Assembly (NCBI GenBank): GCA_004297825.1
Contig: SCSX01000037.1
Coordinates: 1 to 64,000 of the forward strand
Direction of reading: 5' to 3'
DNA length: 64,000 nt
Origin: Spirochaetota bacterium
GTDB taxonomy: Bacteria; Spirochaetota; UBA4802; UBA5368
This document shows positions 41,527 through 52,436 of the stretch, piece after piece. Each line of letters begins with the position of its first letter. Position 1 is the first letter of the stretch. Below the pieces are notes generated by a model. The model saw nothing but the letters and a program-made list of their open reading frames with translations. It was not told where the DNA came from and did no database searches. The translations under genes and the position numbers were made by a program.

Positions 41527-41733
41527 ATGAACGAGATTATATTCTACATCGAAGAATCCCTGGACGGCGGGTTCGAAGCACGCGCCCTTGGGCAATCCAT
41601 TTACACCCAGGGGGAGGACATCGAAACGCTTAAAGCCAATATTATCGACGCGATAAAATGTCATTTCGAACCGGGAATGGCTCCGCAGGTGATAAAACTT
41701 CACTATGTACGGGAGGAGGCCATTGCCCTTTGA
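41527..41733 (+). CDS. hicB: HicB-family antitoxin
   Basis: A 68-aa protein with the short HicB (DUF1902-like) fold: MNEIIFYIEESLDGGFEARALGQSIYTQG in parts, then DAIKCHF. It lacks a C-terminal DNA-binding domain. It should neutralise the HicA ribonuclease encoded next. The antitoxin precedes the toxin, the less usual order. The start is chosen from the predicted transcription start: the ATG at 41515 lies on the -10 element's edge and is improbable; 41524 is also possible. Confidence 0.8.
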   Translation: MNEIIFYIEESLDGGFEARALGQSIYTQGEDIETLKANIIDAIKCHFEPGMAPQVIKLHYVREEAIAL

Positions 41734-41972
41734 AAATTCCCCGAGATGAAAGCGGGGAATCCCTTGTAAAACGATTATCCGCATTTGGCTATACGATTAC
41801 CCGTCAATCAGGGAGTCATATCAGGCTTTCGACCGCACAGAAAGGTGAACACCATATCACTATCCCGTCTCATGATCCGATAAAAATCGGGACCCTGAAT
41901 TCAATATTAAAGGATATCGCCTCTCATTTCCAGATATCAAAGGACGAACTAATTCAAACGTTGTGGGGTTAA
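41730..41972 (+). CDS. hicA: HicA-family mRNA interferase toxin
   Basis: An 80-aa double-stranded-RNA-binding-fold toxin that cleaves mRNA. The typical start (M/L)KIPRDESG, the catalytic His in RQSGSHIRLS (about 27-36), and the HHITIPSHDPIKIGTLNSIL block are all present. The start is a TTG overlapping the hicB TGA stop (TTGA), with GGAGGAGG upstream, so toxin translation is coupled to the antitoxin. A longer upstream frame is non-homologous. Confidence 0.88.
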   Translation: MKIPRDESGESLVKRLSAFGYTITRQSGSHIRLSTAQKGEHHITIPSHDPIKIGTLNSILKDIASHFQISKDELIQTLWG

Positions 41973-42076: not shown

Positions 42077-45000
42077 TTATGTCCGCCGCCTCATTGCGAC
42101 CATGGTGATGTCGTCGTCGCTCATGCGGTTCTTCGCGTACTTCGTTCCCTTCATGCGGACGAGCACGTTTCTCAGGCACTCCTCCAGGTCCTCGCACTCG
42201 ACATTCTCCCCGAAGGCCTGGACGAGACGCTTGTCATCGTCGATCGCCGGCTTCCTCCGCTCCTCGCCGCGCTGCGCAAACGAAAAGTTTTCGAGTATAC
42301 CGTCCGTGTAGAGAAAGAGCGTGGCGCCCGGGGGGAAATCCGCCCGGCTCTCGTCGAACGCGAGGGTGCGGTTTATCCCGCAGATCGCCCCGTGCGGCTT
42401 GAGGTGGATAACGCCCTTCCCCGGCACATGTACGTACTGCTCGGGATGACCCGCCGAGCTCGCCGTCACCTCCCCGGCGTTAAGATCGACATCCGTGATG
42501 CTGCCCGTGAAGTACACCCGCGAATGCTGGAACTTGCTACAGAGCCGCTCGTTCAGGAAGGTGAAGACCTCCCCGGGCGAAAGGTCCGTGCGGCGGATGA
42601 GGTCGTACTCGGTGAGGATCGAGATGCAGTTGAACGAGGCGTTCACCCCGTGCCCCGTCGCGTCGATGATGAGGATGCGTATGCGCCCCGGGGCGTGCTC
42701 GTAGATGTCGTAGATGTCGCCCCCTATCGTGTAGAGTGGGTCGTAGTGGATAGCCGTCTCCAGGCGCTCCTGCGAGTCGATGCGCTTCATCATCATCTTC
42801 CCCACGAACAGGCGCGCCAGGTTCAGGTCCTCCATGAGGAGCTTCTCCCAGTCGCTCATCTTCGTGATCGCCTCGTTCAGCGTCGCGGTGCGCTCTAAAA
42901 GCGAAATTTCCAGATCTGTCGTCTTCGCCGACAGGTGCGACTTCACCCGGTCCTCCATCTGGAAGATGTAGCCGATCGCGAGCTGGTTCTCCACCCGCAC
43001 CAGGAGCTCTTTCGCGTTGTAGGGCTTGGTGATGTAGTCGTTTCCCCCGAAGATGAAGCCCTGCACCAGGTCGTTCAACTGTGCCCGCGCGCTCACCATG
43101 ATGATGGGGATGAACCGCACCGGGTTGTCCGTGCGGATGCGGAAGGCGACCTCGTAGCCGCTCATCCCCGGCAGCATGATGTCAAGGATCACGAGCGCCG
43201 GGATCTCCCGCGCGACGTGCTCCACCGCCTCCGGGCCGCTCGCGGCGGTACGCACCTCGTACTCCTCCGAGCCGAGTATGTCGGCAACGATTTTCAGATT
43301 CACGGGATCGTCGTCCACCGCGAGGATATAGCCGGGGCGGTGGCGCCCCGCCTCGCGCAGCTCCACGCGTACCTCGGGGATGGGCTCCTCTATCATGACG
43401 GGCGGGAGTATATCGGCGCGCGCGAGCTGGGTTCGGGAGACGCCGGCGATTCCCTGTGGTGGCTGGGCGGGGAGCCACACGTGGAACACGCTTCCTTTAC
43501 CTAAGGTGCTATCGGCCCACACCCTTCCCCCGTGCAGTTCCACGAGCCGTTTCGTGATGGGAAGCCCCAGGCCCGCCCCCTCATAGTGGCGCGTGGACGG
43601 GTCCTCCACCTGCTTGTAGGCGCTCCATATCTGGTTCAGGTCCTCCTTCCGGATGCCCGGCCCCGTGTCGCGCACCGAGACGAGGACGCCGCCGTTGTCC
43701 GTGCGCGCGCTCACCTCGACCTCGCCTTCCGGGGTGAACTTGATGGCGTTCCCTATGAGGTTCAGCATGATTTGCTCGAAGCGATGCTTGTCGCCCACTA
43801 TGGAGGGGAGGTCCTCCGGGACCGCGTGTGTGAGGCGCAGCGGCTTTTCACCCACGAGGCCCTGCGCGAGCGAGACGAGGCCCGCGATATGCTCGGGGAG
43901 GCGGATCTCCTCGATAAAGAGGTCGACCTTCCCCGCCTGGAGCTTGCTGAAATCGAGGATCTCGTTCACGAGCCCCGCGAGCCGCTCCGCGCTCCTCTTG
44001 ATAAGGCCCACGTTCTCGCGATGCTTCGCCGGCAGTGGCGCCTTCTTGTCGCGCTCCATGACCTCCGAGAGGCCTATAATCCCGTGAAGTGGCGTGCGCA
44101 GCTCGTGAGAGGTCGTGGCGAGGAAATCGTCCTTCATCTTATCGACGACCAGGAGCTCACCATGGGCGGATTCGAGTTCTGTGTGGACCTGGGCGAAGCG
44201 GGAGGCGAGGACGGAAGCGAAGACGAGAACCATGAAAAAAAATCCTTCTGCGGTATAATCGCGGGTAAAGATAAATACATTCAGGAAATGAAACATGCTA
44301 AGTAAAGAACAAATAGCCAGAACCAACATTCCGGTTAAAATCCGCATGGAGTAGGCTTTGCCTAATCTTTTACTACGGAAGGAAATCCATAGCCCATAAA
44401 CCAATACCAAGCCTATGCTCTGAATAAATGGTTCATAGAAATACTTGATATAATTCGAAGGACTTGAAAAATATATGCAATCGGCGAAAAGAAAAAGCAA
44501 TAAAAAGGCGTAGAAACTAAGTATAATATATGTTATTCTAAAAAGTGATTGTTTAAGAAACACATGGATGAATAAAATCAATAATGGCGGGATAAGAATT
44601 CCAATACCATATGTTAACAAGACATATACTTGTTGAGAATCGAAAATCCAAAGAGCGATTCCTTTATAACCAAGAATGAAAAGCCCAATTGATAACGCCA
44701 AGAGCGAAAAGACCAAGTAATATAAATCCCCTTTTCTATAGTTATAGTAAAGGAGGAAATAAACAAACAAAAACAAATCGATTGCTGCAAGGAAACAATA
44801 CCAGATAAAATTGATAAACCATTCACGCTGCAATACTTTATAGGGGCCAAATTTCACATAACGCTGAAATCCGGAGTTTCCGTTGAGAATACCAGTTCTA
44901 ATTGCTACTATATTAACGCCTTTTTTTTGAAATGAAACAGGCAACAACACAACTTCAGATTTACCAACGATTTCCGGATTTATTCCGCCGGCTTCAAACG

Positions 45001-45433
45001 GCCTTGTTTCATGAATAATTTGACCATTACAATATAGTTGCAAACCCCTATAATGAAATGGAAGGGACAAACCATAATTTCCGACTTCGTCTATAACTAG
45101 TTTTTTAAAGTACCATGAGGTGCCATGATAAAATTCGTGGCCCTGATTTTCCCATGACGTATAGAGACTTAGCATGTCCCATTCGCCGTTTTCTAATGAT
45201 GGTTCTTTATCTTCCAGAATGTCCTTCGGCAAGAAAAACCAGCGATCTGTGAATTCATATATGGCGTTTTTATCAGAAACATGAATTATACCGGGGGCAT
45301 CATAAATCGAGGAATCAGTATGGCCGGATGAACGAAATCCGGCCATCACAACTAATAAAAAGAAAAGGAGGACAAAAGTCCTTTTCGCAAAGGCGCACAA
45401 TAAATTTATAATTCTCACATGTTTAAAGTTCAA
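42077..45433 (-). CDS. Hybrid sensor kinase: 7TMR-DISM sensor, histidine kinase, receiver, SpoIIE phosphatase
   Basis: A 1118-aa membrane signalling protein. It has a signal/anchor (about 15-32) and an extracytoplasmic jelly-roll sensor (about 50-205, 7TMR-DISM-like; WYFKKLVIDEVGNYGLSLPF). Seven membrane helices follow (about 215-405). The HisKA has its His in TTSHELRTPLHGIIG (about 440), the ATPase shows NLIGNAIKF, DTGPGI and GAGLGLPI, and the receiver has its Asp in LVILDIMLPGMSGYE (about 750). An intact SpoIIE phosphatase ends the protein (GGDIYDIY, IDATGHGVNAS). It could autophosphorylate and also dephosphorylate a partner. The start is TTG, 23 bases after the upstream small gene. The DNA for the sensor half (from about 44240 up) is AT-rich; the rest is GC-rich. 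Confidence 0.85.
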   Translation of the reverse strand: MNFKHVRIINLLCAFAKRTFVLLFFLLVVMAGFRSSGHTDSSIYDAPGIIHVSDKNAIYEFTDRWFFLPKDILEDKEPSLENGEWDMLSLYTSWENQGHEFYHGTSWYFKKLVIDEVGNYGLSLPFHYRGLQLYCNGQIIHETRPFEAGGINPEIVGKSEVVLLPVSFQKKGVNIVAIRTGILNGNSGFQRYVKFGPYKVLQREWFINFIWYCFLAAIDLFLFVYFLLYYNYRKGDLYYLVFSLLALSIGLFILGYKGIALWIFDSQQVYVLLTYGIGILIPPLLILFIHVFLKQSLFRITYIILSFYAFLLLFLFADCIYFSSPSNYIKYFYEPFIQSIGLVLVYGLWISFRSKRLGKAYSMRILTGMLVLAICSLLSMFHFLNVFIFTRDYTAEGFFFMVLVFASVLASRFAQVHTELESAHGELLVVDKMKDDFLATTSHELRTPLHGIIGLSEVMERDKKAPLPAKHRENVGLIKRSAERLAGLVNEILDFSKLQAGKVDLFIEEIRLPEHIAGLVSLAQGLVGEKPLRLTHAVPEDLPSIVGDKHRFEQIMLNLIGNAIKFTPEGEVEVSARTDNGGVLVSVRDTGPGIRKEDLNQIWSAYKQVEDPSTRHYEGAGLGLPITKRLVELHGGRVWADSTLGKGSVFHVWLPAQPPQGIAGVSRTQLARADILPPVMIEEPIPEVRVELREAGRHRPGYILAVDDDPVNLKIVADILGSEEYEVRTAASGPEAVEHVAREIPALVILDIMLPGMSGYEVAFRIRTDNPVRFIPIIMVSARAQLNDLVQGFIFGGNDYITKPYNAKELLVRVENQLAIGYIFQMEDRVKSHLSAKTTDLEISLLERTATLNEAITKMSDWEKLLMEDLNLARLFVGKMMMKRIDSQERLETAIHYDPLYTIGGDIYDIYEHAPGRIRILIIDATGHGVNASFNCISILTEYDLIRRTDLSPGEVFTFLNERLCSKFQHSRVYFTGSITDVDLNAGEVTASSAGHPEQYVHVPGKGVIHLKPHGAICGINRTLAFDESRADFPPGATLFLYTDGILENFSFAQRGEERRKPAIDDDKRLVQAFGENVECEDLEECLRNVLVRMKGTKYAKNRMSDDDITMVAMRRRT

Positions 45434-45456
45434 TAAGAAAACATGGCTGCCAATCC

Positions 45457-45681
45457 TTAGTAGCTGTCCGATGTAATATTTGCTTTAAATGTGGGAAGAT
45501 CATCAGCATGGGCAATAATCAATTCACATTCATGATCCAATATAGCATTGTAGCCATTGGCGGAAAACCATTCCTGAAGCACTTTCACATTTCTTTTCTC
45601 GACTGCCTTCTTGAATTCCGCTATCATGTCGACTTTTTCCTTTTTCCCTGCATCTAGTACGAAATCTAAAAATCCTTTCAT
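45457..45681 (-). CDS. Small Nif11-like protein 1
   Basis: A 74-aa protein beginning MKGFLDFVLDAGKKEK, with a helix then LQEWFSANGYNAILDHECEL. The spacing of this block (helix, GY turn, acidic helix) resembles Nif11 leader domains of ribosomal peptide precursors. It shares the F(L/I)DF start, WFSxxGY, CE(L/R) and a terminal Tyr with the protein at 45977-46246. There is no obvious core peptide. A very strong ribosome site (GGGGAGG) suggests high expression. It precedes the kinase gene by 23 bases in an AT-rich region. The Nif11 assignment is tentative. Confidence 0.6.
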   Translation of the reverse strand: MKGFLDFVLDAGKKEKVDMIAEFKKAVEKRNVKVLQEWFSANGYNAILDHECELIIAHADDLPTFKANITSDSY

Positions 45682-45976
45682 GTTTTCCTCCCCTCAGTTA
45701 CATATTTAATTATTTCATGAATTTCATCACTTACACTGGATCATGTTTTTGTAATAAGTCAAATGATTAATTTTTGGCTTTTTAACGTGGCGTGGTGATA
45801 ATAAGGAGTGTTTTATGGAAATTCCAGCAATTTCGTGTTGAATTGCGTTCGTCAGAATTACGCTCACAACAGAATAATACCAAACCACCTCACCAAGGGC
45901 ACAACCAACCGCGCTCCATGGGGAGGGATGTGGCTTCAATGAAAAATGAAAAAAGTTACCTTCTAAAATCTGGTGA
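45682..45976. other. Gap between the two Nif11-like genes
   Basis: No convincing gene; a leftward open frame here overlaps the neighbouring gene and has no homology signal. A plus-strand AAGGAG-ATG opens only an 8-codon frame. It may hold a promoter for the downstream small gene and kinase. Confidence 0.4.
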
Positions 45977-46246
45977 TTAATACCCACCATTGAAACGCAA
46001 TACGTCTTTATAATTGCCGATGGATTCTCCCGATTTAATGAGCCTCTCACAATCTTCAATTTTAACGACATATCCCAACTCAGAAAACCAATCGCATAGC
46101 TTTTGTGCATCGCCTTCTTTAGTTAGGCTTTCAAGTTTTTTAATATTCTTATAGCTTTCCTCAATTTCATTCTTTGAAATTGATACAATAAAATCGATAA
46201 AATCGTTTTTCTTATACTCTACGTTTCCATTAATTTGACCAGTCAT
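45977..46246 (-). CDS. Small Nif11-like protein 2
   Basis: An 89-aa protein related to the 74-aa protein downstream: FIDFIVSISKNEIEE, then KLESLTKEGDAQKLCDWFSELGYV and EDCERLIKSGE, ending NGGY. The helix-GY-helix pattern is close to Nif11 leaders (LAKELGYxFTxEDL type). The Gly-Gly near the C-terminus is where leader peptides are often cut, but only one residue follows. The ATG at 46246 is preferred; a TTG 20 codons upstream is possible. AT-rich like its neighbours. Confidence 0.55.
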   Translation of the reverse strand: MTGQINGNVEYKKNDFIDFIVSISKNEIEESYKNIKKLESLTKEGDAQKLCDWFSELGYVVKIEDCERLIKSGESIGNYKDVLRFNGGY

Positions 46247-46356
46247 CCAAGTACCCCCATTTATAGTGAATTGACTAAGAGTTCTACGCGAACCAGATTT
46301 AGTCAAGATTAATTATTTCAAATAGATAATAAACAGTATGACAAAGTACCTATAAG

Positions 46357-47073
46357 TTAAAGTTCAATTACGATACGAAATCCTTCTGTATTATCTATTT
46401 GATTTATTTCCCCCCATGTTCGAAAAGCCGACCGGACACAAATACTTGTGCTCCATGATCCACCACGCATTACTTTATATTTTCCTGTAGTAGGGCCTTT
46501 GGGATTATCTTCCGGAGAGATTGAATAATATTTTTCATCATACCAGTCCATACACCACTCCCAAACATTCCCACACATATCATAGATACCCCAGGAGTTA
46601 GGTAATTTATGCCCTACTGCTTGTGTTTGGTTATTTGAGTTTTTTCCATACCAAACATATTTATCAATTATGTTTGGATCATCACAATTACCCCAAAAGT
46701 ATTTAGAATTTGTTCCGGCCTTGCAAGAATATTCCCATTCGCATTCAAAAGGAAGACGCGCCTTTATGGAATATTTATCTGAATATCGATTACAAAATCT
46801 CATCGCATCCAACCATGACGTATTTTCAACAGGACAATTTGAGTTCATTTTAAATAGGGAAGGATTTTCATTCATTATTGTGTAATATAAAAGTTGTGTT
46901 GTTGGATTCTTGCTAATAAAAAAAGGGGCTATATTCACAATATGTTGCGGATGCTCATCTATATTGCCTTCATTTTCATGGGAACCCATGGCAAAAGTCC
47001 CCCCACTGATGAAAATAAACTCAGTCCCATCTATCGTAATACAACTACCATGTTGATATATATTGTTTACCAT
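46357..47073 (-). CDS. SUMF1/FGE-fold protein (formylglycine-generating-enzyme family)
   Basis: A 238-aa protein of the FGE-sulfatase/C-type-lectin fold: FIFISGGTFAMGSHENEGN (about 17-35), the PVENTSWLDAMRFCNRY block, LPFECEWEYSCKAG, DMCGNVWEWCMDWYD and the terminal VMRGGSWSTSICVRSAFR then GFRIVIEL. In true FGE two cysteines near GGS bind copper. Here they align with Thr/Ser and only one Cys (SIC) is nearby, so canonical formylglycine formation is doubtful. There is no signal peptide. It lies 110 bases upstream of the Nif11-like gene 2, same strand, AT-rich. Confidence 0.8.
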   Translation of the reverse strand: MVNNIYQHGSCITIDGTEFIFISGGTFAMGSHENEGNIDEHPQHIVNIAPFFISKNPTTQLLYYTIMNENPSLFKMNSNCPVENTSWLDAMRFCNRYSDKYSIKARLPFECEWEYSCKAGTNSKYFWGNCDDPNIIDKYVWYGKNSNNQTQAVGHKLPNSWGIYDMCGNVWEWCMDWYDEKYYSISPEDNPKGPTTGKYKVMRGGSWSTSICVRSAFRTWGEINQIDNTEGFRIVIEL

Positions 47074-47856: not shown

Positions 47857-47912
47857 CGTCGGGTCCGCCCGTAGAGACGCGATTAATCGCGTCTCTACGG
47901 GCGGACCCGACG
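47857..47912. repeat. Perfect 56-base palindrome b (GTAGAGACGCGATTAATCGCGTCTCTAC core)
   Basis: Arms 47857-47883 and 47886-47912 are exact reverse complements around TA. The inner 28 bases are the core also found at 52.45 kb; the outer 14 bases (CGTCGGGTCCGCCC) are private to this copy but still perfectly mirrored. It lies 3 bases downstream of the stop of the RAYT-like gene at 47916, the usual place for a REP element beside its transposase. Confidence 0.9.
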
Positions 47913-47915
47913 ATT

Positions 47916-48428
47916 TCACGGGAATGGGCAATCCCGCATATGCATCCGGACCCGTTCCAGTTCGGCGGTGTCTCGAATGACATGGTCATGGTAGCGCGAT
48001 TGCCATTCGAACGAGAAGTGCCCGGCGGCATGGATGGCGACGGTACAGCGGCCCTTGTACCAGCGGACGATCGCGGGCAGGGATGATTCCAGAACCAGCG
48101 GATCGGGCTCGTCTTGCTTCCTTACGGCCCCGCGTCGGCGATGCGGTCCCGGAAAATCATTCAGGAAAACTATCCCCTGCACCCGGTCCGGCAGCACCGC
48201 GCACGCGTCGACGGCCGCATGGCCGAATTGCGGGGGGATGGAATTCCATATCGATTTGACGATCCTCCCCAGGTCCGAAAGCACTATTGTCCCCTGTTCG
48301 ATTTTCCCAAAAAACGATCTGCGCTCACTGGTCTCGATGCTAACCAGGTGGCCGCCGGGCCAGAAATAGTCCCCGTCCGGTCTTTTCGCCGGGCGCACGC
48401 CGTAATAGTGATTGGAAAGGTTATCCAT
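47916..48428 (-). CDS. REP-associated (RAYT/IS200-like Y1) transposase, degenerate active site
   Basis: A 170-aa protein of the IS200-like/RAYT family. It keeps the overall frame (GGHLVSIETSERRSFFGKI, then SLPAIVRWYKGRC, then FEWQSRYHDHVIRD-AELERVR). The metal-binding HxH, normally MPDHVHGIV, reads LPDRVQGIVFL, so both histidines are lost and the protein is probably inactive. RAYTs process REP palindromes. It is paralogous to the pseudogene at 48564-49105, with which it forms a tandem duplication. Confidence 0.75.
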   Translation of the reverse strand: MDNLSNHYYGVRPAKRPDGDYFWPGGHLVSIETSERRSFFGKIEQGTIVLSDLGRIVKSIWNSIPPQFGHAAVDACAVLPDRVQGIVFLNDFPGPHRRRGAVRKQDEPDPLVLESSLPAIVRWYKGRCTVAIHAAGHFSFEWQSRYHDHVIRDTAELERVRMHMRDCPFP

Positions 48429-48448
48429 AATACATATACGGTTCTCCC

Positions 48449-48565
48449 ATGAAAACCGCTAACAGTAAAGACGCGATTCATCGCGTCTCGGCGCCCCCTG
48501 CCAACCGGCATTCCACCACCGCCGCTAACGCATTAATAAGCGCGGGTCCCACGTCACCACCAGTC
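48449..48565 (+). pseudogene. Fossil copy of the first 39 codons of the reductase gene
   Basis: These 117 bases align without a gap to 49126-49242, the 5' end of the FAD-dependent reductase gene, with 87 identities by hand count (about 74%). The frame is preserved (AALISAGPT against VAVIGAGPAG). Homology stops at the stop codon of the second RAYT gene (48564-48566). It is a truncated relic created when the RAYT unit was duplicated, and it includes a copy of the short palindrome. Confidence 0.8.
48469..48488. repeat. Short palindrome c (AGACGCGA / TCGCGTCT)
   Basis: An 8-bp perfect stem around TTCA, matching the inner core of palindromes b and e. It lies inside the reductase relic upstream of the first RAYT-like gene. 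Confidence 0.75.
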
Positions 48566-49105
48566 AGCGATTTTTATTCGTCCATCGCGCCGGGTTCATC
48601 CGGATATAGCGCCTGATCCGTTCCAGTTCGGCATTGTCGCGGATGATGTGGTCGTGGAAACGGGATTGCCACGCGAATCGGGGATGGGCGGCGCGGATAT
48701 CATGGGTGCACCGGCCTTTGTACCAGCGGATGATTTTCGGTATTGAACAACCGGCCAGCATGGGATTGGACACACCGGTAATACCACCGGTATTAACGGA
48801 ATCCATGGCAGAAAGACCCGCGAACCGGGTGAATGGGTAATAATCACAATCCCATGTATATGGTCCGGCATCACCACGAATTCATCGACAATCGCATGGC
48901 CGAATTGCCCGGGGATCAGATGCCAGATCAATTGCGCGATCTCCCCCATGTTCGACAACACCATGCGCCCGTCCATAATCGTCCCGAAAAATCGTTCGCG
49001 CCTGGAGGTATTAATAGTCACGAAATACCAGCCGGACCATGAATAATCCCAATGCGGATGGCGGGCGGAGGGAACCCGATAATAGTGATTGAAAAAGTTA
49101 TCCAT
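48564..49105 (-). pseudogene. Frameshifted RAYT/IS200-like transposase
   Basis: The N-terminal part (from 49105; MDNFFNHYYRV, then WYFVTINTSRRERFFG and the intact HxH in VMPDHIHGIVII) and the C-terminal part (IPKIIRWYKGRC, FAWQSRFHDHIIRD, LERIRRYIRMNPARW, ending at 48564) are in different frames. The shift lies about 48800-48830. Joined, they give one complete RAYT of the expected size. Unlike the copy at 47916 the catalytic histidines survive, so the frameshift is the main lesion (or a sequencing error). Confidence 0.8.
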
Positions 49106-49125
49106 AATATATATACGTATCCTCC

Positions 49126-50226
49126 ATGAAATCCGTTAACCGTAAAGACGCGATTCATCGCGTCTCAGCACCCCCCACACATCGGCGTCCCCGCACCGCC
49201 GACGTCGCCGTAATCGGCGCGGGTCCCGCGGGTGCGACGGTCGCACGCATCCTCGCGGAAGGCGGGGCGCGGGTCCTCCTCTTCGACTATCGCGCTCCCT
49301 GGGAGAAGCCCTGCGGCGGGATGCTCAGTCCCGGGGCGATGGAGATTCTCCTGGAAGACGGTCCGTATCCGGGCTCGTGGGCGGCCACCACCGATATCGA
49401 GTATATCCTTCCGCGCGGTGACCGGTCCGTTCACGCGTTCCGGAAACCGGTCGCGCTCGTTTCGCGGCGCGAAATGGGCGAATACCTGCTGGGAAAGGCG
49501 ACCAGCGGCGGTGCCGGGCATGTGGCGGAGAAGGTAACCGGCATTGCGCGCGCAAAGGCAGGCTGGGAGATACGGACGGCCCGCTCCACCTTCCATGCGC
49601 ACACGCTCGCGGGGGCGGACGGCATGCACGGGATCGTGCGGGGGACGGTGAGCGCGCCAATTCGCCGGGCGGACATGGCGCTCTGCTGCGGTTATTTCCT
49701 GGACCCCCTGGAAAACGCGCGCCCCGTCATCCGGTTTTCGGATATGCAGGGATATGCGTGGATATTTCCCCGCGGGAACGACACGAGCGCGGGAATCGGC
49801 GCGCGGCACGGGGAGAAAAAAGGCGCGGACCTTTTCCGCGAGCTCGACGGGCTCATTGCGGATACGTGCCCCGGGGCGCGCGTAAGGTCCCGGTGGAGCG
49901 CGGTACTGCCCATGGCCGCGGAGCCCGGATTTTTCGATTCACCCTGCGCGGGCGACGGCTGGCTCCTCCTGGGAGACGCGGCGGGGCTCGCCCACCCCGT
50001 GACGGGTGAGGGCATCCTGTACGCGCTCCTGTCCGGCAGGCTCGCCGCGCAGTGCATCCTGGAAGGGGCGCCGCTGCACTACGACCAGGCCTGGCGCGCG
50101 GGGTATGGAGCGTTTCTCGCGGAATCCACCCGCATCGCCCGTGCCGATGCCGCGCTTGGACGGGACTTTGGGCCCGGGATGCGCGGAGCTCTCATGTACA
50201 AACGCTTCATGGAAATCATGCATTAA
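49126..50226 (+). CDS. Geranylgeranyl-reductase-like FAD-dependent oxidoreductase
   Basis: A 366-aa flavoprotein. The dinucleotide-binding motif is VAVIGAGPAGATVARILAEG (28-47), then KPCGGML (about 64-70) and the second FAD motif LLGDAAGLAHPVTGEGI (about 283-299). These are features of the geranylgeranyl reductase family, which saturates isoprenoid chains. The first ~20 codons come from a palindromic repeat (KDAIHRVS) and are not family sequence. There is no clear ribosome site, and the RAYT relic begins only 20 bases upstream. Probably an isoprenoid-modifying enzyme acting with the next genes. Confidence 0.8.
   Translation: MKSVNRKDAIHRVSAPPTHRRPRTADVAVIGAGPAGATVARILAEGGARVLLFDYRAPWEKPCGGMLSPGAMEILLEDGPYPGSWAATTDIEYILPRGDRSVHAFRKPVALVSRREMGEYLLGKATSGGAGHVAEKVTGIARAKAGWEIRTARSTFHAHTLAGADGMHGIVRGTVSAPIRRADMALCCGYFLDPLENARPVIRFSDMQGYAWIFPRGNDTSAGIGARHGEKKGADLFRELDGLIADTCPGARVRSRWSAVLPMAAEPGFFDSPCAGDGWLLLGDAAGLAHPVTGEGILYALLSGRLAAQCILEGAPLHYDQAWRAGYGAFLAESTRIARADAALGRDFGPGMRGALMYKRFMEIMH
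49146..49165. repeat. Short palindrome d within the reductase reading frame
   Basis: AGACGCGA-TTCA-TCGCGTCT, identical in arms and loop to palindrome c. It encodes residues about 8-13 of the reductase ORF. Confidence 0.75.
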
Positions 50227-50247: not shown

Positions 50248-51252
50248 ATGGCCGATACGAGCACACTCATGCGGTACTGCGCGTCACTCCGGTTCGGGAG
50301 CATCGAACCCTGCGGCGCGGAGCGCGCGCTTCTCGTTGAGCTCAACGACACGGTGCTCGCACTCCTGCGCAGTCTGCCGGAATCGCAGCACGCCCCCGCC
50401 TCCCTGTTCCTGATGGAATACTCGGGGTTAAAATTAGGGGGGCCGATAGACTTTTTCCGAAACTACCATGCCCCCGCCTGGTCGGTGCTCCACTGGATCG
50501 CCGCGCGCGCGGACAACCCCCGGAAACCCGATTCCTCCTTATTCCCGCGTCTTGCGCGCGGTCACGCGATGGCGATGCTCCTCCACTCGCTGGACGACCA
50601 TCTTAACGACGGGGAGATTCCCTCCACACACCTTGCGCTCCTCGTGCGAAGCGAGGCATGGCGCGTCATGCGCGATTCATTTTCAATCGCCGAACGACCT
50701 GATGCGCTTGGTTCTGGAATCGCGGACTCCTGTATCGACGCGTATTACCGTGCTATAAGCTCCCCGCCGGACCGTGCAGGCCTGGACGCCTACTGCACGC
50801 ACTTTCGGGGTCAAATGGCCACCTGGCTCGCCGGGCCGCTCCTTGCCGCGCGCGCAGTCTCGGATGATCCGGACTTCTACCGGGGCGTGCGCGAGTCCTA
50901 CGAGTCGTTCGGAATCGCCTGGAGGCTCCTGGACGACATCCAGGACGTCGCCGCCGACGCGCGGGCGGGCGGGCACAGCGCCGTCTACCATGCGCTCGAC
51001 GAGGAAGGTCGCGCGCTCTGGGACGGGCTTTCCATGCGACCTCCCGTAAAGGAAGCGGAGATTCCGGCTGAGCTTGTACGAGCGCTTGCCGCGCAGGACA
51101 TATGCAGCGCTATTACAAACAGGATATGCGCAGAGCTCGCACGGGCGGAATCAATCGCCGCGCGGCATGCCATGCAGGGGCTTGCGGACGAGTTCCGCGT
51201 TCTGGCAGCCCCGCTCGCGCAGGAGAAATCAACGGGCTATGAGCGAATCTGA
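50248..51252 (+). CDS. Class I isoprenoid-synthase-like enzyme
   Basis: A 334-aa all-helical protein with two Asp-rich motifs typical of trans-isoprenyl synthases: MLLHSLDDHLNDGEIP (about 109-124) and WRLLDDIQDVAADARAGG (about 226-243). These would bind Mg-diphosphate. It is divergent from standard polyprenyl synthases. It could condense or cyclise a prenyl diphosphate. It lies 21 bases after the reductase and overlaps the radical SAM gene by 14 bases, so the three genes likely form one pathway. Product unknown. Confidence 0.72.
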   Translation: MADTSTLMRYCASLRFGSIEPCGAERALLVELNDTVLALLRSLPESQHAPASLFLMEYSGLKLGGPIDFFRNYHAPAWSVLHWIAARADNPRKPDSSLFPRLARGHAMAMLLHSLDDHLNDGEIPSTHLALLVRSEAWRVMRDSFSIAERPDALGSGIADSCIDAYYRAISSPPDRAGLDAYCTHFRGQMATWLAGPLLAARAVSDDPDFYRGVRESYESFGIAWRLLDDIQDVAADARAGGHSAVYHALDEEGRALWDGLSMRPPVKEAEIPAELVRALAAQDICSAITNRICAELARAESIAARHAMQGLADEFRVLAAPLAQEKSTGYERI

Positions 51253-52282
51253 ACTGCTCGAATCAATCACACAGGAAAACCTCACGCTCGAGGTGACGAC
51301 ACGCTGTACCAGCGCGTGCATGCATTGCTTCGCCCGCGCAGGACGCGCCGAATTCATAGATATGGCGCGGGAAATTGCTTCCGGGATAATTGATGAGGGG
51401 TTCGCGTGCGGCTACCGGCACCTTCACCTGACCGGCGGCGAGCCGCTTGTGTGGGAGGCGCTTTTCCCCGTTTTAGAGCATGCATTTACCAGGGGGTACG
51501 AATCCGCGTTCATCAACACCAACGGCATGCTTCTTTCGCGCGATATCTGCCGGGAACTCGCATCATTCAAGGCGGTCTCTCTTTCCATTAGCATCCAGGG
51601 CCCGGAGGGCCTGCATGACCGGATTCGGGGAGAGGATTCGTACCGGAAAGCCATCGCGGGATTGGAAGAAGCGCTCGGCTGTGGACTCGCGGTAAGCGTA
51701 TTTTCCTCCACGGGGAGAAGCCTTCTTGCCGGCCTTCCTCGTTTTGCGGAATCTCTTTTTAGCGGATTCCCCGGCATCGACCGGCTTACCCTTATCCAGC
51801 TCATCCGCGTCCCCGGCGACGCGCTCGATCTTTCGGGAGAGCTTCTTACTCCGGGAGAATTCGTTTCGCTCGTACGTACGGCGGCGCTTCTGAACCTTTA
51901 CGGCTATCGGATTTCCATCCAGGAGAATCCTCTCGCCCGGGCCGTGGCCGTGATCCTGGGCATGCCTTGGGTACCCGCTGCCCCGTCCCTGCATCGCGCG
52001 GGGCGCCTGGTTGTAATGGCGGACCTCTCCCTCACGCTTGCCCATTCCACCCGGGAGCCTGTCGGCGCCTACCGTCCCGGCTCACTGGCGGAAACCCTCG
52101 CTTCGGCAGAATACCGGGAGCGCACCCGACCCGATAATTTTATCTGCCCCCGTTGCAAATTCTTTTCATGCTGCCGTTCGGAGGGAATGCTTCGCCCTTC
52201 GGAACAATTCCGCGACATGGAGGAACACACGCCTTTCTGCGTGCGCGTCCTCGGAGAAGCGCAGGGTGCGCAGAATGTGTAA
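51239..52282 (+). CDS. Radical SAM protein with C-terminal cysteine-rich region
   Basis: A 347-aa enzyme. The SAM/[4Fe-4S] motif CTSACMHC is at about 21-28, followed by HLHLTGGEPLVWEALFPVL (SAM-binding GGEP) and the LSISIQGPEGLHDRIRG segment of a TIM barrel. The C-terminus has CPRCKFFSCC and PFCVRVLG, likely ligands of a second cluster (SPASM/twitch-like). The ATG at 51239 overlaps the isoprenoid-synthase-like gene. Substrate unknown; context suggests a modified isoprenoid or small peptide. Confidence 0.85.
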   Translation: MSESELLESITQENLTLEVTTRCTSACMHCFARAGRAEFIDMAREIASGIIDEGFACGYRHLHLTGGEPLVWEALFPVLEHAFTRGYESAFINTNGMLLSRDICRELASFKAVSLSISIQGPEGLHDRIRGEDSYRKAIAGLEEALGCGLAVSVFSSTGRSLLAGLPRFAESLFSGFPGIDRLTLIQLIRVPGDALDLSGELLTPGEFVSLVRTAALLNLYGYRISIQENPLARAVAVILGMPWVPAAPSLHRAGRLVVMADLSLTLAHSTREPVGAYRPGSLAETLASAEYRERTRPDNFICPRCKFFSCCRSEGMLRPSEQFRDMEEHTPFCVRVLGEAQGAQNV

Positions 52283-52436
52283 AATTATTTCTGGCGTCGT
52301 AACGGGAGCTTGCGCCAGGTGTGCGTATTTGGAATTATGCGGGGAATACGGCGTGCTTCCCGTGGTGGATTTTTCGGATGACGGGGGCGCGTTATTTTGC
52401 CGGCGCGTATTTGGCGGTGGGACGGAATCCCCATAA
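52275..52436 (+). CDS. 53-aa cysteine-rich protein resembling the radical SAM C-terminus
   Basis: It begins MCKIISG, overlaps the radical SAM stop by 8 bases in another frame, and contains GACARCAYLELCGEYG and LFCRRVFGGG. The Cx2C...C...FC(V/R)RV(L/F)G pattern mirrors the last 45 residues of the upstream radical SAM protein (CPRCKFFSCC ... PFCVRVLG). It may be a small cluster-binding partner, a peptide substrate, or a duplicated tail. The stop lies one base before palindrome e begins. No clear ribosome site; translation may be coupled. Confidence 0.5.
   Translation: MCKIISGVVTGACARCAYLELCGEYGVLPVVDFSDDGGALFCRRVFGGGTESP

Follow-up and report, generated by a model that had tools for sequence, protein, structure and literature searches.

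Diversified peptides paired with cognate histidine kinases are found in the agr and nisin-type systems. The locus described here lies in a 64,000-nucleotide stretch of a Spirochaetota genome (assembly GCA_004297825.1, contig SCSX01000037.1, positions 1 to 64,000, the whole of which is called the window below). It has such a pair as well, although its peptide, enzymes and receptor are not known to be homologous to those of agr or nisin. Its central element is a family of small proteins ending in tyrosine, encoded beside a 7TMR-DISM histidine kinase and in the company of a radical S-adenosylmethionine (SAM) enzyme and an enzyme of isoprenyl-synthase fold. The closest described systems are ComQXPA, mycofactocin and the Nif11-leader RiPPs (ribosomally synthesized and post-translationally modified peptides). 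In ComQXPA, the precursor and the receptor are polymorphic, and the comQXP genes are polymorphic by pherotype (PMC4408185). A census in 2014 found no comQXPA locus outside the Firmicutes (PMC4008528). The mycofactocin precursor, MftA, ends in an invariant CGVY (PMC3023750).

The window contains an AT-rich island (ca. 44.25–47.2 kb, with a GC content of 0.34–0.38, most of the flanks having 0.60–0.67) that consists of two homologous small open reading frames (ORFs), an ORF for a SUMF1-fold protein, and the sensor half of a 7TMR-DISM hybrid kinase. An island of four same-strand frames had been reported in a preliminary description of this DNA, and its positions, low GC content and domains were confirmed by the ORF list, base composition and Pfam. 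The features of the island, the rest of the kinase and the enzyme genes are:

42077–45433, minus strand: kinase ORF (ORF list).
42077–44236, minus strand: GC-rich resident core of the kinase, with HisKA, HATPase_c, Response_reg and SpoIIE phosphatase domains (Pfam; GC content at third codon positions, GC3, 0.87).
44237–45433, minus strand: AT-rich sensor half of the kinase (residues ca. 1–399), an extracellular-type N-terminal region plus 7TMR-DISM_7TM (Pfam; GC3 change point at residue 399; sensor alignment).
45457–45681, minus strand: putative precursor 1, 74 amino acids, ending TSDSY, immediately upstream of the kinase (family member; terminal Tyr; covariation with the sensor half; AlphaFold2 model).
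45977–46246, minus strand: putative precursor 2, 89 amino acids from the ATG at 46246, ending FNGGY, in an ORF that extends to 46306 (homology to precursor 1).
46357–47073, minus strand: SUMF1/FGE-fold protein, a probable passenger (Pfam FGE-sulfatase, E = 4e-46).
49126–50226, plus strand: FAD oxidoreductase of the geranylgeranyl reductase superfamily (TIGR02032, 165.6 bits, cut-off 158.8).
50248–51252, plus strand: PPS-like enzyme of trans-isoprenyl-diphosphate-synthase fold, with DDHxxD and DDIxD motifs (AlphaFold2 fold; co-occurrence).
51239–52282, plus strand: radical SAM enzyme, with CxxxCxxC and a C-terminal CxxC-x5-C...C (Pfam Radical_SAM, E = 6e-15).

By the features tested, the best reading is that this system would work like ComQXPA yet is not homologous to it, and that it is probably a member of neither ComQXPA nor mycofactocin. 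Like ComQXPA, it combines an isoprenyl-synthase-fold enzyme, a short variable precursor and a multi-transmembrane histidine kinase, and the receptor kinase is encoded beside the precursor – in the spirochaete loci, immediately downstream of it. Unlike ComQXPA, it has an additional radical SAM enzyme, its enzymes do not travel with the cassette of precursor and sensor, its kinase is a 7TMR-DISM hybrid, and its hosts are Spirochaetota, Desulfobacterota and one Bacteroidota isolate. No match to ComX (PF05952) was shown among 29 family members (Pfam, E ≤ 1), and in contrast to ComX, which has a conserved Trp within 5–10 residues of its C-terminus, their alignment has an invariant terminal Tyr and no conserved Trp in the tail. 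With mycofactocin it shares a small precursor with an invariant C-terminal Tyr and a radical SAM enzyme, but only the last Tyr is fixed, there is no invariant CGVY, an isoprenoid-type enzyme and a sensor kinase are present, and none of the mft partner genes was seen. As in RiPP pathways, a small precursor is genetically linked to an enzyme of a peptide-modifying type, the radical SAM enzyme. The small proteins resemble Nif11-leader precursors in having a helical leader-type domain, which profile-profile alignment places in register over the Nif11 domain. They differ in the tail, which ends in Tyr and has no GG motif, a feature of many Nif11 precursors, and in having neither a lanthionine synthetase nor a cyclodehydratase encoded beside them.

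The small proteins are probably the precursors of a ribosomally made, modified Tyr-peptide signal, with precursor and sensor half forming an exchangeable specificity cassette on a resident kinase. Five features come together here – a variable precursor with a fixed Tyr, a radical SAM enzyme, an isoprenyl-synthase fold, a cognate sensor, and the joint exchange of precursor and sensor – and a modified-peptide signal is their best explanation.

Neither small protein of the window matches Pfam or NCBIfam significantly. They are homologous to each other, as had been proposed (E = 0.012–0.015 in a whole-genome search, and ca. 1e-20 for each against the family profile), and have in common WFSxxGY, a D-x-C motif and the terminal Tyr. 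This assembly has no further copies; genome G007 likewise has a second copy in tandem (L029:7242–7511). In a profile search of 46 genomes of the order, the family was present in 19, a 20th match (G009) being discounted as it lies inside a long frame containing a stop. The small genes of the order are almost always immediately upstream of a 7TMR-DISM kinase and on the same strand. In a search with the sensor domain, all 18 matches above ca. 400 bits adjoin a small gene. The 7TMR-DISM_7TM domain of the window kinase scores 30.5 bits (cut-off 29), with relatives scoring up to 55. The kinase cores vary: most are HisKA-receiver-SpoIIE, and some are PAS-HisKA_3 with an adjacent response regulator.

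The final Tyr is the sole invariant residue in the alignment of 29 cluster-linked members, and the residues before it are highly variable. With the G006 member and three loci found later, the Tyr is present in 33 of 33 cluster-linked members. The Cys that had been singled out in the preliminary description is indeed in both window proteins, but unlike the Tyr it is not conserved family-wide. Several members have no D-x-C Cys (those of G007, G025, G035 and G043, and some from Desulfobacterota), which makes an essential role unlikely, and it was rejected as the modified residue. The AlphaFold2 model of precursor 1 has a helical body and a disordered C-terminal tail, and a Foldseek search with the small-protein model gave nothing significant.

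A likeness to Nif11 had also been suggested, and it survives in a weaker form. A straightforward assignment to PF07862 was rejected, all members being below the Pfam cut-off (matches in 3 of the 29, best E 0.049). When aligned by hhalign to a profile of 14 cyanobacterial Nif11 proteins, the family gave a probability of 82% and a score of 31 (28.4 in a script run), with the domain in register. Against these scores of 28–31, shuffled controls reached at most 12.4 and reversed controls at most 12.8, column shuffling being a lenient control. It is plausible that the small proteins are remote Nif11 relatives at best.

Exchange moves the precursor and the sensor half together, as a single AT-rich cassette, onto a resident kinase that is GC-rich, and the enzymes follow the kinase. 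Among 15 pairs of kinase and small protein, mean identity was 34% for the sensor half, 48% for the kinase half and 31% for the small protein. Distances between small proteins were correlated with those between sensors (Mantel r = 0.74, p = 1e-4; 0.73 given the kinase), and not significantly with those between kinase halves given the sensor. Radical SAM and PPS distances track the kinase (r = 0.59 and 0.72, respectively), not the small protein (0.08 and 0.24). The sensor data rejected the kinase tree (approximately unbiased (AU) test, 2e-38) and the kinase data rejected the sensor tree (4e-53), while the small-protein data rejected the kinase tree with a log-likelihood difference of 87, much larger than that for the sensor tree, 25. 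An exchange can be seen between genomes G007 and G004, which are 99% identical in the compared kinase half, 29% in the sensor and 26% in the small protein. At the DNA level, ca. 2 kb without similarity separate a 7 kb flank (85%) from the kinase (97.6% over 735 bp, a comparison that runs to the end of the G004 contig).

The composition of the genes marks the same boundary. Inside the window kinase gene, GC3 rises from 0.36 to 0.87 at codon ca. 399. A jump from 0.28–0.46 to 0.74–0.94 is found in all 11 of the GC-rich loci, at the equivalents of residues 396–424 of the window kinase, a short way ahead of the phospho-accepting His 443. Membrane-protein composition does not explain why the sensor half is AT-rich and was rejected: in the same genomes, unlinked 7TMR-DISM kinases have no such jump. 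From the break at one junction in the GC-rich loci and the covariation it follows that the island in the window is one copy, the local one, of an exchangeable cassette of precursor and sensor. The earlier idea of an acquired module that pairs small peptides with the sensor of the membrane kinase is thus borne out by the conserved neighbourhood, the covariation and the cassette swap.

The two enzymes co-occur with the small proteins. The radical SAM enzyme is encoded in 18 of the 46 genomes, 17 of them with the small family (Fisher p = 1.6e-9), and the PPS-like enzyme in 17, of which 16 have the small family (p = 1.5e-8); these values are not corrected for phylogeny. Counted from the small family, the radical SAM enzyme is linked or co-occurring in 17 of its 19 genomes in the order and in eight Desulfobacterota-type loci. 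G033 is the only genome in which both enzymes are present and the small gene was not seen, and its contig ends inside the neighbouring kinase. The enzyme, small-protein and kinase genes may be divergent, convergent or collinear, and because their order varies the linkage is not due to one frozen operon. The preliminary description was mistaken in finding no known RiPP enzyme: the radical SAM and isoprenyl-synthase-fold enzymes at 50.2–52.3 kb, whose genes overlap by 14 nt, are the ones that co-occur with the family.

Across 84,980 species genomes, the PPS profile matched five Desulfobacterota-type loci, Telluribacter humicola and two Calothrix. All five Desulfobacterota-type loci encode, in this order, a cyclase/AAA/TPR protein (identified by Pfam in L073 and L081, and by position, length and N-terminus in the others), the PPS-like enzyme, the radical SAM enzyme and a Tyr-ending small protein. 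Three new PPS loci came from a subsequent scan of 395 Desulfobacterota-type genomes, each with a radical SAM gene and a Tyr-ending small gene (HCY, PLY and KDY). Four Desulfobacterota-type loci have a C25-type peptidase (by Pfam in L073, L077 and L148, by sequence similarity in L074), and in one a subtilase (S8) occupies its position. Telluribacter humicola, a named Bacteroidota isolate, has a row of genes (L083:9935–13383) for a PPS-like enzyme, a small protein with NY at its end, a protein of unknown family and a FAD_binding_4 oxidoreductase; no radical SAM gene was seen at this locus. When a small-protein profile made only from spirochaetes was run against six whole genomes, those of the first five Desulfobacterota-type loci and of Telluribacter, the top match was the PPS-adjacent gene in five of them. 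The Calothrix PPS-like homologues (L079:9899–10927 and L082:9887–10927) have an altered second Asp-rich motif, DDLRxC.

The PPS-like protein has a trans-isoprenyl diphosphate synthase fold in its AlphaFold model (pLDDT 90), which aligns to geranylgeranyl diphosphate and solanesyl synthases with a VIA-align Z of ca. 22 over 286 residues (Foldseek TM score 0.6–0.7). PF00348 is weakly matched by 4 of 9 PPS-like members (best E 0.0012), and no chain among the PDB sequences was matched by the PPS profile. Isopentenyl diphosphate isomerase genes adjoin the PPS-like gene in two loci. The enzyme may prenylate the peptide, or could instead make an isoprenoid used elsewhere. Homologues of the geranylgeranyl-reductase-family flavoprotein adjoin small proteins in G007, G004, G025 and G043. 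B12-radical SAM-like proteins are encoded beside some small-protein loci (L024:10035–11615, L028:3396–4967, L028:11640–13292, L069:2550–4256) and a methyltransferase in L024 and L032; these are likely a lineage-specific tailoring step. In the window, the radical SAM gene is overlapped at its end by a 53-codon ORF (52275–52436, plus strand), which resembles the Cys-rich C-terminal tail of the radical SAM enzyme itself and may be what is left of a second copy of its gene.

A more specific form of the proposal, which we put forward tentatively and at somewhat less than even chances, is a RiPP pheromone of didermic bacteria with an isoprenoid-modified C-terminal Tyr. A radical SAM enzyme and a peptide prenyltransferase of isoprenyl-synthase fold would make it, a 7TMR-DISM receptor would detect it, and specificity would be set by a swap of precursor and half-receptor. 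In the modified-peptide reading as a whole, which we regard as probable, the precursor would consist of a helical leader, remotely like Nif11, and a flexible tail of variable sequence with Tyr always at its end. The two enzymes would modify the C-terminal Tyr region, most likely by adding an isoprenoid, and a geranylgeranyl-reductase-type flavoprotein, a B12-radical SAM enzyme or a methyltransferase may sometimes join in. A protease would then release the C-terminal peptide, and after export the product would bind to the N-terminal/7TM half of the kinase next door, which would signal through its HisKA, receiver and SpoIIE modules. Joint exchange of precursor and sensor half, with the kinase core remaining resident, would create pherotypes, and the enzymes could stay in place because, as we propose, they recognise the shared leader and the Tyr.

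Several observations weigh against a modified-peptide signal or limit it. Two paralogues (L035:8668–8889 and L036:8553–8774) have no terminal Tyr and end in LFLT(R/H); their context is conserved and different, with methyl-accepting chemotaxis proteins and a ketoacyl-synthase-III-like gene. The small-protein data mildly reject the sensor tree (AU p = 0.0065, Shimodaira–Hasegawa p = 0.06), and covariation between neighbouring genes is partly a matter of linkage and does not in itself prove ligand binding. The PPS-like and radical SAM enzymes were not seen in the G004 and G006 assemblies (95% and 73% complete), nor a Tyr-ending small partner beside the Calothrix PPS-like genes. No exporter was found in the loci, and no dedicated protease in those of spirochaetes. 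The Desulfobacterota loci have the cyclase/AAA/TPR protein, a different putative receiver, in place of a 7TM kinase, so the product need not always act extracellularly. Nearly all loci are from metagenome-assembled contigs.

The alternative that survives best, though we consider it unlikely, is that the modified peptide is chiefly antimicrobial and the kinase an autoinducer sensor or immunity regulator of the nisin type. A diversified peptide with a matching sensor fits this as well, and the closest PDB relative of the radical SAM profile, ahead of PqqE and YydG, is the bacteriocin maturase SkfB. However, no immunity or export genes recur beside the cluster, and the main spirochaete context of the family is a precursor adjacent to a kinase.

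Slightly less likely again, the small protein could be an unmodified ligand, inhibitor or co-sensor of the 7TM sensor, with the enzymes making something else. Its tight covariation with the sensor, and the lack of covariation between it and the enzymes, would be expected in that case. The near-complete co-occurrence of small protein and enzymes argues against this, as does the order in Desulfobacterota, where the small gene comes after the radical SAM gene and the 7TM kinase is absent; an invariant terminal Tyr amid variable neighbours would also be unusual in a plain binding partner.

It is improbable that a small redox cofactor derives from the Tyr end, with the kinase merely regulating its synthesis. 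The mycofactocin precursor also has an invariant Tyr end and a radical SAM maturase (PMC3023750), and the mycofactocin maturase is among the weak NCBIfam neighbours of the radical SAM enzyme in the window, but a fixed cofactor would need neither highly variable residues before the Tyr nor the exchange of precursor and sensor as a cassette. Very improbable is a chance, horizontally acquired fragment of unrelated or decaying genes, since the island, though AT-rich and close to toxin-antitoxin genes, to repeats and to a SUMF1 gene that is probably a passenger, has intact frames, the same gene order in many genomes, a neighbourhood conserved in related genomes and across three phyla, and a composition break that falls at one codon in each of the 11 GC-rich loci.

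Literature searches (open-licence papers) found no description of this gene combination, and the chemical-signalling system looks undescribed so far. If the modified-peptide signal is real, part of the 7TMR-DISM receptor class would gain candidate peptide ligands, isoprenoid-linked peptide signalling would reach into Spirochaetota and Desulfobacterota too, in an independent and non-homologous form, and pherotype-like swapping would involve half a receptor along with the precursor. One precursor, two enzymes and one kinase suffice for a direct test of the hypothesis, and a related pair of enzyme and Tyr-ending protein is available in Telluribacter humicola.

The SUMF1-fold protein had been put forward as an unusual maturase. 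SUMF1 homologues are found in 23 of the 46 genomes, and as none among the matches listed adjoins a small-protein locus, this role was rejected; the protein is probably a passenger in the island. Of the neighbourhood foreseen for these genes, the small genes with a 7TMR-DISM kinase are conserved, but SUMF1, among the matches listed, is not part of it.

Other genes and repeats lie around the cassette. A YoeB/YefM-type toxin-antitoxin pair (PF06769, PF02604; 47240–47931, minus strand) is found between the cassette and the biosynthetic genes, and a HicA-like protein (PF07927) is encoded at 41658–41972 on the plus strand. Two tandem, related ORFs (47916–48428 and 48596–49105, minus strand) look by eye like REP-associated tyrosine transposases, with no match in a Pfam search. 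The region 47857–49230 contains a 27-nt palindromic repeat in three copies and a perfect palindrome of 56 nt.

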